Positions 23,068-28,152 of a stretch of DNA of 64,000 nt are shown here, one piece after another. Position numbers and translations under genes: made by a program. The notes beneath the pieces are model-generated. The model was not told the DNA's origin, made no database searches, and saw nothing but the letters and a program-made list of their open reading frames with translations. Source of the DNA: Natronobacterium texcoconense (lineage in GTDB: Archaea; Halobacteriota; Halobacteria; Halobacteriales; Natrialbaceae); assembly GCF_900104065.1 (NCBI RefSeq), contig NZ_FNLC01000001.1, positions 310,001-374,000 of the forward strand, in the 5' to 3' direction. Numbering within the stretch: position 1 is the first letter of the stretch; every line of letters begins with the position of its first letter.

Positions 23068-23307
23068 ATGACCCGCAATATCCGACGGACACGGCGACAG
23101 CTACTTGGCGTTGCTGGTGCGACGGCGTCGGCGATGCTCGTCGCCGGCTGTGCCGACGAACCAGAGGAAGAGGAAGAGAACGGCATCGAGCCCGAAGACG
23201 AAGACCCCGCCGACGAACCCGGTGAGGAAGAAGACGACCCCGAAGCCGAGGAAGGAACCGGAAACGGACAGGACATGGAAGACGAGGACGAAGACGAAGA
23301 CGACTGA
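23068..23307 (+). CDS. Short Tat-exported acidic lipoprotein
   Basis: 79 residues. The N-terminus has RRTRRQLLGVAGATASAMLVAGC, a twin-arginine signal and a lipobox whose Cys is near residue 28. Nearly all of what remains is Glu, Asp and Pro with no predicted fold. It would be a lipid-anchored acidic tail on the outer face of the membrane. The frame is unlikely to be chance because the signal and lipobox are both well placed. Function unknown. Confidence 0.7.
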   Translation: MTRNIRRTRRQLLGVAGATASAMLVAGCADEPEEEEENGIEPEDEDPADEPGEEEDDPEAEEGTGNGQDMEDEDEDEDD

Positions 23308-23633: not shown

Positions 23634-23909
23634 TTACACGTCGACGTACTGGTCGACCCACTCCTGACGGCGCTGGAGCGCTCGTCGCCCTTTCGGGGTG
23701 AGCGCGTAGTAGTTCGTCCGCCGGTCTAACTGGCCTTTCTCGACGAGGTCTTTCTCGACGAGCGTGTCGAGATTCGGATACAACCGGCCGTGTGTCACCG
23801 GCTGGTCGATGTAGCGATTGATGTCGTCGAGAATCTCCTGTCCGGACGGTCGATCTTTTCCTGCGATGACGTACAGCAAGTCACGCTGGAACCCGGTTAG
23901 TTCGTCCAT
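23634..23909 (-). CDS. PadR-family transcriptional regulator
   Basis: 91 residues, close to the minimal PadR length. It starts FQRDLLYVIAGKDRPSGQEIL, then VTHGRLYPNLDTLVEKDLVEKG, the standard winged helix, and ends YYALTPKGRRAL. PadR proteins mostly repress, responding to small ligands; there is no ligand domain beyond the helix here. It has no linked operon, though the NUDIX gene at 24083 starts 174 bp away on the other strand. Confidence 0.93.
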   Translation of the reverse strand: MDELTGFQRDLLYVIAGKDRPSGQEILDDINRYIDQPVTHGRLYPNLDTLVEKDLVEKGQLDRRTNYYALTPKGRRALQRRQEWVDQYVDV

Positions 23910-24811: not shown

Positions 24812-26152
24812 TCAGCTCAGCACGCCGATCGAGAGCTGATCGTCGTCTTCGTCCTCGTCGAGGTCGTTCTCGTCGTTCATTTCGTCGTCTTCGTCCATTT
24901 CGTCGTTCATCTCGTCGTCTTCATCGACGTCGTCGTCAGGGATCTCCTCGAGTTCCTGAATGTCGTCGAGAGTGATCGTATCGGCGTTCACGTTGTCGAT
25001 CGAGATTGCGGTGGCTGAGGCCTGGGAGACGGTTTCGGTCTCGGTGTCGGCTTCGTCGTTCTCGTCATCGGTGACGTCGTCCTCTTCTTCATCGTTCAGC
25101 GCGTCGTTTTCGTCGTCCTCGTTGTTCACCGCCTCGTCGTCTTCCGCGACGTCGTTTTCGTCAGCAACGTCGTTCTCATCGTCCTCCTCGTCGGCTTCCT
25201 GGAGTTCGTCGACCGTCATCGAGTCGATCGAGATCGACTCCACGTCGAACTGTTCGATCGTGAGCTCACCGATCTCCTGGGTGACTGCCTCGTCGTTCTC
25301 TTCGTCGACAACGACGCCGTTCTCCTCTTCGTCAGCTTCGTCGTTCTCGTCCTCGTCAGCGGCATCGTTCTCCTCTTCGTCAGCGGCGTCGTCGTTATCG
25401 TCATCGTCGAACAGTCCCTCGAAGAAGTCGCCGATCTGATCGAGGATACCGTCGTCGCCGACCTCGAGGTCCTGGATCGTCATCTGCTCGACATCCATCG
25501 TCTGGATGGTGAGTTCCTCGACGGTGAGTTCGTCAGCGTCCTCGTCGATCAGGTCCTGATCGTCAGCTTCGTCGTTCTCCTCCTCGTCGTCAACGCCGTT
25601 CTCTTCGTCCTCGTCGGCCTCGTCAGCTTCGTCGTTCTCCTCCTCGTCGTTAACGTCGTTCTCATCGGCTTCGTCCATCTCGTCATCTTCGTCTATTTGG
25701 TCGTCCTCGTCGAGTTCGAGGTCCTCGAAGGAGACGTTCTCGAATTCGAGCTCCTCGAACTCGACGTTCGAGAAGGTCACGTCCTGTGCAGTGTCGAGGT
25801 CTTCAGCCTCGTCGTTCTCGTCATCCTCGTCGTTCATCGCCTCGTCGTCTTCCGCTTCATCGTCAGCGACATCGTTCTCTTCATCCTCTTCCTCTTCTTC
25901 GATCTCCTCTTCGAGGTCTTCAGCGTCCATCTCGAGCTCGTCGACGTTCAGCTCCTCGATCGTGGCGTCGTCGATCGTCACGTCGTCGAGTTCGAGCGTC
26001 TCTACCTGTACGTTCTCGAGTGTTGCGCTCATGTCTCCGGCGTCGTCGGTCGCACTGGCGCTCGAGGTTGCTCCGGCGAGGGCGGGTCCTCCCGAGAGTA
26101 CAACCATCAGTGCGACGAAAACGACACCGAGTTTCTGTGGTCGTGAAACCAT
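24812..26152 (-). CDS. Secreted acidic pentapeptide-island protein, paralogue A
   Basis: 446 residues. A Sec signal peptide (about 1-27, ending ALAG) leads into an Asp/Glu/Asn-rich chain broken by five islands, near 44-74, 124-148, 207-231, 294-317 and 376-403. In each island hydrophobic residues recur in a pentapeptide pattern, for example VEFEE LEFEN VSFED LELDE. This suits a short right-handed beta-helix turn, as in pentapeptide-repeat proteins. Linkers are loops of EENDEADEA and similar. No membrane anchor, sorting signal or enzyme motif is visible. The tail LSIGVLS is shared with the neighbour. Function unknown; binding of divalent cations is a guess. Confidence 0.85.
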   Translation of the reverse strand: MVSRPQKLGVVFVALMVVLSGGPALAGATSSASATDDAGDMSATLENVQVETLELDDVTIDDATIEELNVDELEMDAEDLEEEIEEEEEDEENDVADDEAEDDEAMNDEDDENDEAEDLDTAQDVTFSNVEFEELEFENVSFEDLELDEDDQIDEDDEMDEADENDVNDEEENDEADEADEDEENGVDDEEENDEADDQDLIDEDADELTVEELTIQTMDVEQMTIQDLEVGDDGILDQIGDFFEGLFDDDDNDDAADEEENDAADEDENDEADEEENGVVVDEENDEAVTQEIGELTIEQFDVESISIDSMTVDELQEADEEDDENDVADENDVAEDDEAVNNEDDENDALNDEEEDDVTDDENDEADTETETVSQASATAISIDNVNADTITLDDIQELEEIPDDDVDEDDEMNDEMDEDDEMNDENDLDEDEDDDQLSIGVLS

Positions 26153-26667
26153 GCGCTCCGACTTACAGCCGTTTCCCGGCTAAAACGAAGAGACTGTTAC
26201 AGGATTATCTCGCCGATTCGCCACAACCTCCCGGAGAAACGCACAGTTGGAAACCGCGACCGCGTAGCTAATCGTGGGTTCATACTCTCCGGATCGATGA
26301 GTGTCGGTATTACCGACGAGAACGCCGAAACCGTCCCGAATCGGCATTGTGCTTGCGGTCGCCGCTGTATTATCGCATCGCCACTGGAACGAGGTTTTAC
26401 CGGTGTTTACGCTCGGGGGCTTCCCCAGCGGGTGGCGCTCGAGACGGGCTGGAATCGAGTACCATCGGTAGTGTCATGCGTCCATCGCCGCCTGATCGCA
26501 CAGCTACGGAGCAGAGTGGTACCGCTAGCTTCGGTCGCCGCGCTGACCCCGAGAGCGGTACTGGACGTGATCGCTCTAGCGGAGGCCCACACGTCGTGGT
26601 GGTCACTCGAGGGCAGCGACGGGTGCGAAAAAGAAACCGGGATGTCGACGGTCAGCGACCGCGCGGA
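26153..26667. other. 515-bp gap between the two acidic paralogues
   Basis: It begins with the promoter of paralogue A (conserved word at 26181-26208). I see no plausible gene in the rest: open frames on both strands are Arg/Cys-rich, lack motifs, and have no ribosome-binding signal. Base composition is close to that of spacer DNA elsewhere in the window. The gap may hold a terminator for paralogue B. Confidence 0.5.
26181..26208 (-). promoter_or_regulatory. Conserved promoter word upstream of paralogue A
   Basis: Minus strand: a GTAACAGTC word followed by CGTTTTA about 29-35 bp before the ATG. The same two words at the same spacing precede paralogue B. CGTTTTA is well placed for a TATA-like element, and GTAACAGTC may be an activator or BRE-type site. 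The conservation stands out because bases around it are not conserved. Confidence 0.5.
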
Positions 26668-28098
26668 TTAGCCGAGGATGCCGATCGACAGTTCGTTGTC
26701 GTCGTCATCCTCGTCGTCGAGTTCGTCGTCTTCGTCTTCAGCGTCGTCTAGGCCTTCCGCGTCACCGATGGTGAACGATTCGGCGGTCGCGTCACCGATG
26801 TCGATCGACGTCGCGGATGCCTCGGAGATAGTCTCCTCGTCGACGTCGTTCTCGTCATCGTAGTCGTTCTCGTCGTCCATCTCGTCGTCAGCAGCGTCGT
26901 CGTTCATCTCGTCATCGTCATCGAACACGCTGGTGTCGTCGTCATCGTTCTCGTCTTCGTCGTCGGCGAGGTCGTCATCTTCCTCGTTCATCTCGTCGTC
27001 ATCGTCCAGCGCGTCGTCCTCGTCGTCAGCGAGGTCGTCATCGTCCTCGTCGACTTCGTCGACGGACTCGACGGTCATCGAGTCGACCGTGATTTCGTCG
27101 ACGTCGAACTGCTCGATGGTGAGTTCGTCGATGTGCTGTTCCTCGACGTCTTCGTCATCCATCTCGTCGTCGTCCTCGAGTGCGTCGTCTTCGTCGTCAG
27201 CGACGTCGTTCTCGTCATCGTCGTTCATCTCGTCGTCATCGTCCAGCGCGTCGTCTTCGTCGTCGGCGACGTCGTTGTCATCGTCGTCGAGGGCGTCATC
27301 CTCGTCGTCCATCTCGTCTTCGTCGTCGGCGAGGTCGTCATCTTCCTCGTCGACCTCGTCGTCCTCGATGGTCAGTTCGTCGATAGTGAGCTGATCGACG
27401 TCCATGGACTCGATGGTGAGTTCCTCGACGGTGAGTTCGTCAGCGTCCTCGTCGATCAGGTCGTGTTCGTCGTTCTCGTCGTCGTAGTCGTTCTCGTCAG
27501 CAGCATCGTCATCGACGCCATCGTCGTTCATCTCGTCGTCATCGTCCAGCGCGTCGTCTTCGTCGTCGGCGACGTCGTTGTCGTCAGCGACGTCGTTGTC
27601 CAGCTCGTCGTCATCCATCTCGTCCTCGTCGAGGTCGAGGTCCTCGACCGTCACGTCTTCGAGTTCGAGGTGCTCGATCTCGATGTCGGAGAACATCACT
27701 TCTTCGCCGTCGGCGACGTCGTTGTCGTCGTTAACGTCGTTTTCGTCATCGACGCCGTTGTCCTCGTCGTCAGCGGCGTCGTTTTCGTCATCGTCGAGTG
27801 CATCGTCGTCATCGACGCCGTTGTCCTCGTCGTCAACGACGTCGTTCTCTTCCTCATCGACGAGCTCCTGAAGCTCGTCCTCGTCAGCGTCGAGCTCATC
27901 GACGTTTAGCTCCTCTATCGTCGCGTTCTCGACCGTCACGCTGTCGAGTTCGAGTGTCTCTACGTCTGTGTCTTCGAGTGTTGCGCCCATGTCTCCAGTG
28001 TCATCCGATGCAACTGCCGCGCCTACCAGGGCCGGACCCGATAGGGCTACTGTCAGTGCGATCAAGACGACACCGAGCGTCTGTGGTCGTGAAACCAT
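26668..28098 (-). CDS. Secreted acidic pentapeptide-island protein, paralogue B
   Basis: 476 residues, same plan as paralogue A: a signal peptide starting MVSRPQTLGVV and ending near ALVGA, then islands at about 38-69, 133-157, 219-246, 322-347 and 422-450, and the end ELSIGILG. Islands read, for example, LTVEE LTIES MDVDQ LTIDE LTIED. The linkers are longer and more regular than in A, with repeats such as DDALDDDDEMNDD. Islands align one to one between paralogues while linkers do not. The product is predicted to be soluble and outside the cell. Tandem duplication is the likely origin. Confidence 0.85.
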   Translation of the reverse strand: MVSRPQTLGVVLIALTVALSGPALVGAAVASDDTGDMGATLEDTDVETLELDSVTVENATIEELNVDELDADEDELQELVDEEENDVVDDEDNGVDDDDALDDDENDAADDEDNGVDDENDVNDDNDVADGEEVMFSDIEIEHLELEDVTVEDLDLDEDEMDDDELDNDVADDNDVADDEDDALDDDDEMNDDGVDDDAADENDYDDENDEHDLIDEDADELTVEELTIESMDVDQLTIDELTIEDDEVDEEDDDLADDEDEMDDEDDALDDDDNDVADDEDDALDDDDEMNDDDENDVADDEDDALEDDDEMDDEDVEEQHIDELTIEQFDVDEITVDSMTVESVDEVDEDDDDLADDEDDALDDDDEMNEEDDDLADDEDENDDDDTSVFDDDDEMNDDAADDEMDDENDYDDENDVDEETISEASATSIDIGDATAESFTIGDAEGLDDAEDEDDELDDEDDDDNELSIGILG

Positions 28099-28127
28099 GC
28101 AGGAGGATTTACCGTTCGTATCACGGG

Positions 28128-28152
28128 TAAAACGGAGCGACTGTTACGAGAT
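28128..28152 (-). promoter_or_regulatory. Conserved promoter word upstream of paralogue B
   Basis: Minus strand: GTAACAGTC then CGTTTTA about 30 bp before the ATG, matching the word upstream of paralogue A at 26181. Between this and the ATG is AGGAGG on the plus strand, which is not a ribosome-binding sequence for this gene. The two genes are probably controlled alike. Confidence 0.5.

Follow-up and report, generated by a model that had tools for sequence, protein, structure and literature searches.

We analyzed a 64,000-nt stretch of the Natronobacterium texcoconense genome (contig NZ_FNLC01000001.1, positions 310,001 to 374,000; hereafter the window) and found that it encodes a tandem pair of exported proteins from a previously undescribed family. 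In this family, five short islands of a five-residue repeat, kept in order and register under purifying selection, are separated by long hydrophilic linkers whose chemistry has been exchanged between lineages, and the genes are preceded by a promoter element of their own. To the explanation that we favor, a compact split solenoid core carrying disordered hydrophilic loops as a hydration or charge brush, we would give about an even chance of being right.

The gene pair and its pentad islands

Gene A (P0001, 446 aa; ORF, translation, homologues and tree) occupies positions 24812..26152 of the window, and gene B (P0002, 476 aa; ORF and translation), its tandem paralogue, positions 26668..28098. 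Both genes and all of their features given below lie on the minus strand. The codon-position composition of the two ORFs (GC3 minus GC2 = 0.56 and 0.60) also supports the view that both are really coding. By inspection, each protein starts with a Sec-type signal peptide (P0001 residues 1-28, 26069..26152, kept in 40 homologues; P0002 residues 1-27, 28018..28098, conserved), in agreement with the two paired secreted proteins proposed by an earlier sequence-only reading. Neither sequence shows, on inspection, a lipobox cysteine, a Tat RR motif or a transmembrane anchor at its C-terminus, which speaks against a haloarchaeal lipoprotein or a C-terminally anchored surface protein. Cysteine is absent from both mature chains, and Asp, Glu and Asn make up 57-61% of them; the net charge is approximately -209 for P0001 and -249 for P0002. 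A short hydrophobic C-terminal tail of the SIGVLS or SIGILG type is present in the two proteins (24815-24835 and 26671-26691) and in most Natrialbaceae members.

Five islands of h-x-h-x-x pentads, separated by Asp/Glu/Asn linkers, were located in each protein. In P0001, homologue alignment together with an AlphaFold model placed island 1 (7 pentads, residues 43-77, 25922..26026, partly strand in the model), island 2 (5 pentads, residues 125-149, 25706..25780), island 3 (5 pentads, residues 209-233, 25454..25528) and island 4 (4-5 pentads, residues 297-316, 25205..25264), while island 5 (residues 378-397, 24962..25021) was assigned by alignment, model and an island-identity comparison. In P0002, island 1 (residues 39-73, 27880..27984) follows from homologue alignment, islands 2 (residues 134-158, 27625..27699), 3 (residues 222-246, 27361..27435) and 4 (residues 326-345, 27064..27123) from homologue pentad counts, and island 5 (residues 427-446, 26761..26820) from alignment and island identity. 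The subfamily of P0001, as well as some distant members, has an additional amphipathic helix after island 3 (GILDQIGDFFEGLF, residues 235-248, 25409..25450), which is helical in the model at low pLDDT; P0002 lacks it. Alignment of the two proteins (56% identity) pairs the islands one to one, and nearly all gaps fall in the linkers, just as the first reading had described.

Strict pentad runs at least four long occur four times in P0001 and four times in P0002, compared with averages of 0 to 0.0004 when residues were shuffled either globally or within 20-aa windows, and a chance origin of the pattern was thereby rejected. Moreover, 40 Natrialbaceae homologues extracted from 29 genomes keep the pentad spacing: all five islands appear in the same order, with the register at the same alignment columns and with fixed island lengths, whereas the linkers range from 14 to 147 aa. 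Even by a lenient count, no homologue has more than 8 contiguous pentads, and the longest run in P0001 and P0002 is 7. Across 802 pentads of these homologues, position i-2 is Leu (0.42), Val (0.23) or Met (0.12), i-1 is mainly Thr (0.48), i is Ile (0.40) or Val (0.36), and i+1 is Asp or Glu in 83%, the acidic position also noticed beforehand. Island 5, near the C-terminus, has weaker pentads yet is conserved. Islands of the same index share 47-74% identity against 18-45% for islands of different index, showing that they are position-specific and not interchangeable modules. In addition, dN/dS between orthologues is 0.08-0.26 for the islands and 0.20-0.63 for the linkers, indicating purifying selection that is tighter on the islands. 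In one 815-aa family member (L057:8663-11107), the linkers are enlarged and an island-4-like segment is duplicated.

Distribution, linker exchange and a family-specific promoter

Of the 63 Natrialbaceae sampled, 50 matched in a profile search, as did 29 genomes from five further haloarchaeal families. Among the 61 genomes searched, 30 of the 37 members of the window's own family matched, many with two adjacent copies and several with a single one; the genome of N. texcoconense has two copies only, P0001 and P0002. In a phylum-wide sample of 393 genomes, every match fell inside the window's order. The gene order tgtA, pair, NUDIX and PadR is retained in most relatives and plasmid records gave no match to the family, on which grounds a mobile or plasmid origin was rejected; taken with the dN/dS values, this synteny points to a vertically kept gene. 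In a tree of the islands, whose deep forks are moderately supported, the two genes fall into different groups, each together with copies from other genera, which suggests that the duplication predates the genus. Other features were noted near the pair: a candidate small acidic Tat-type lipoprotein of 79 aa (23068-23307, plus strand; MTRNIRRTRRQLLGVAGATASAMLVAGC followed by an Asp/Glu-rich tail), which would be a further exported hyperacidic protein, and the PadR-family regulator (23634-23909, minus strand), which is approximately 79-98% identical in most relatives and has very conserved upstream DNA. Many relatives (L041, L042, L044, L046, L048, L056, L060, L065 and others) also encode, within a few kb of the pair, an exported DUF4397-like protein that has a hyperacidic tail as well; its gene is absent from the window.

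Other haloarchaeal families place the same ordered islands between linkers rich in N-glycosylation sequons or in Thr. The linkers of P0002 have an Asp+Glu fraction of 0.65 and no sequons, whereas those of sequon-rich Natrialbaceae members have 0.17-0.43 and approximately 7-14 N-x-S/T sequons per 100 residues; in some relatives the density is 10-14. Sequon-rich linkers are also found in one further family (f7), linkers rich in Thr, Pro and Glu in another (f4), and Thr-rich linkers of the ETTTMAEETTT type (Thr 0.22-0.31) in a third (f17). All 28 f17 genomes also encode a compact, almost linker-free paralogue. By profile comparison, it is homologous to the long members (hhalign probability 97.8, E 1.2e-12), the match spanning only the signal peptide and islands 1-2; its profile returned nothing significant against PDB sequences. 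The polyanionic chain, which the sequence-only reading had made the defining feature of these proteins, was accordingly rejected as such: given the linker-swapped homologues and the compact paralogue, the hyperacidic chain is the filler of one lineage. Loops that are acidic, glycosylatable or Thr-rich on one shared scaffold amount to a natural experiment, by which one could test whether surface acidity and glycosylation are interchangeable for hydration in brine.

Further examination of the upstream regions revealed, before all 40 genes, a 23-nt element resembling GTAACAGTC-NNC-TCGTTTTAGCC, also written GTAACAGTC-N3-TCGTTTTA, in which the A of TTTTA lies 28 or 29 nt upstream of the ATG. It lies at 26178..26200 for gene A (approximately 28 nt before the ATG) and at 28125..28147 for gene B (approximately 29 nt). 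The exact motif occurs in the 4.0-Mb genome at these two genes only, and nearly all of its matches in the 61 genomes are at family loci, none being found in the genomes of other families. Most of the distant members, long and compact, have a relaxed form upstream (AACRGTY-N7-TTTA) with unchanged internal spacing. In f17 genomes this form is also found before a third compact pentad-repeat secreted paralogue (L191, L196) and before a secreted protein (L190) whose Ig-like C-terminus is similar; the motif shared at L191 and L196 suggests a small regulon of pentad-repeat proteins. In a control, the upstream DNA of the PadR neighbor proved even more conserved within Natrialbaceae, which tempers any claim that the conservation of the element is unique. 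What is remarkable is its exclusivity to family genes and its persistence across families, not conservation alone. Such a dedicated element would provide a handle on the regulator of the family.

A probable split solenoid and its alternatives

The AlphaFold model of P0001, built from 39 input sequences (alignments had only 39-40 rows), shows strands in each of the five islands, where block pLDDT is mostly 70-88 against approximately 50 or lower in the linkers, and its pTM is 0.45. For a natural homologue with short linkers (L105), block pLDDT reached 93, 53 residues were at or above 90, and pTM was 0.58. Confident strands are confined to the islands and under half of the residues are ordered, so that both pTM values exceed what the ordered fraction alone would give; this suggests that the islands are placed relative to each other in the predicted structures. 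AlphaFold can over-predict solenoids from repeats. For neither model did Foldseek find a significant match, PDB or viral, and the insignificant PDB hits, mostly right-handed beta-helix lyases and tailspikes at TM of approximately 0.05, carry no weight beyond consistency. With its 20-35 residues, a single island makes up at least one but fewer than two coils of a pentapeptide helix, which is not enough for independent folding and argues for pooling of the islands; pooled, their approximately 26 pentads would give roughly six coils at four pentads per coil. The five islands thus probably form one split beta-solenoid with disordered loops, a fold that is likely but unproven.

In the split-solenoid reading, each gene would have a conserved promoter to itself, probably a leaderless one, and its protein would be exported through the Sec pathway. 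All five islands would then pack together as a single short beta-solenoid in which every pentad turns its two hydrophobic positions inward, while the linkers would stay disordered as long loops emanating from the core, selected for length and strong hydrophilicity but not for sequence. The filler of these loops would vary by lineage, being hyperacidic in that of the window and rich in N-glycosylation sequons or Thr elsewhere. We infer from this arrangement a compact core with a hydration or charge brush, situated on the cell surface or in the matrix around the cell. If true, this would be a repeat fold interrupted to an extreme degree, by disordered loops that exceed it in length. A broader version, in which split solenoids of five islands are used across haloarchaea, with brush loops of exchangeable chemistry (polyacidic, N-glycan-bearing or Thr-rich) and a private promoter conserved across families, for one job of cell-surface hydration, is proposed tentatively; we would sooner doubt than accept it.

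The folded staples on a polyanionic chain imagined in the sequence-only reading correspond to a different arrangement, in which each island folds by itself or upon binding of a partner, and the hyperacidic chain is the working part, acting as a cation buffer or in mineral or surface binding. The very high charge and the constraint that is also seen on the linkers would fit this arrangement. However, the islands are too short to fold alone and are position-specific, the pTM values suggest mutual placement, and in homologues the acidic chain gives way to linkers rich in sequons or Thr or is almost lost. We therefore consider separate folding unlikely, and one fold made from all islands the better inference.

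It would be equally improbable that the proteins are subunits of an extracellular fiber or matrix polymer, analogous to CsgA of curli, in which solenoid ends stack between molecules and the two paralogues might co-assemble. Five repeats, secretion, the tandem pair and the lack of a visible capping domain would suit such a polymer, as open solenoid ends tend to stack. Nevertheless, the conserved neighborhood contains no recognizable secretion or nucleation partner genes, several genomes manage with one copy, and large loops of like charge would oppose stacking except in high salt. A binder of an envelope ligand or partner protein (e.g., the S-layer), using the pentad core as binding surface and the linkers only for solubility in saturated brine, would agree with the stronger conservation of islands and with the Ig-like domain (weak matches to NPCBM_assoc and Transglut_C) that several distant members add at the C-terminus, but is very unlikely, as neither a catalytic nor a polar surface set of conserved residues stands out apart from the pentads and, housekeeping neighbors aside, no partner gene is conserved next to the family gene.

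Comparison with known systems

No model or sequence in Pfam, NCBIfam or PDB covers the family above cut-off, and literature searches found no description of it, so the earlier impression of an undescribed family was upheld. CsgA, the curli subunit, is secreted and forms a beta-solenoid of five imperfect repeats. The likeness to the present proteins, for which the solenoid is predicted, is one of principle only: the repeat is a different one, CsgA has no long charged loops, and neither curli export genes nor other csg genes were found at the pair, whose conserved neighbors are TGT, NUDIX and PadR, nor was there a CsgA repeat match in Pfam or NCBIfam. Halomucin, from the haloarchaeon Haloquadratum walsbyi, is likewise secreted and hydrophilic, and a protective role has been proposed for it (PMC4378361); compared by its description in that source, it is a mucin-like protein of 9159 aa, in contrast to approximately 450 aa with pentad islands here.

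The closest comparison is with pentapeptide repeat proteins (Pfam PF00805/PF13599/PF13576; reviewed in PMC8145042), which share the five-residue repeat with two inward hydrophobic positions and are known to tolerate short loop insertions (PMC8145042). The sequence-only reading had likened the islands to right-handed beta-helices of this class. The resemblance of the repeats held, in that Pentapeptide_4 matched 13 of the 40 members below cut-off (best E 2.5e-4), whereas Foldseek gave no confirmation of a right-handed beta-helix geometry. P0001 scores 17.4 bits against the curated cut-off of 38 and P0002 gives no match, although elsewhere in haloarchaeal genomes the same model does exceed its cut-off. 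The 802 pentads also depart from the A(D/N)LXX consensus: i-2 is Leu, Val or Met and not mainly small, i-1 is mostly Thr and not Asp or Asn, and i is Ile or Val and not Leu or Phe. Furthermore, the window's proteins have at most 7 contiguous pentads in five islands, with loops of 14-147 aa family-wide. By three defining tests on its sequences, the family is pentapeptide-like but stands outside the Pfam pentapeptide families.
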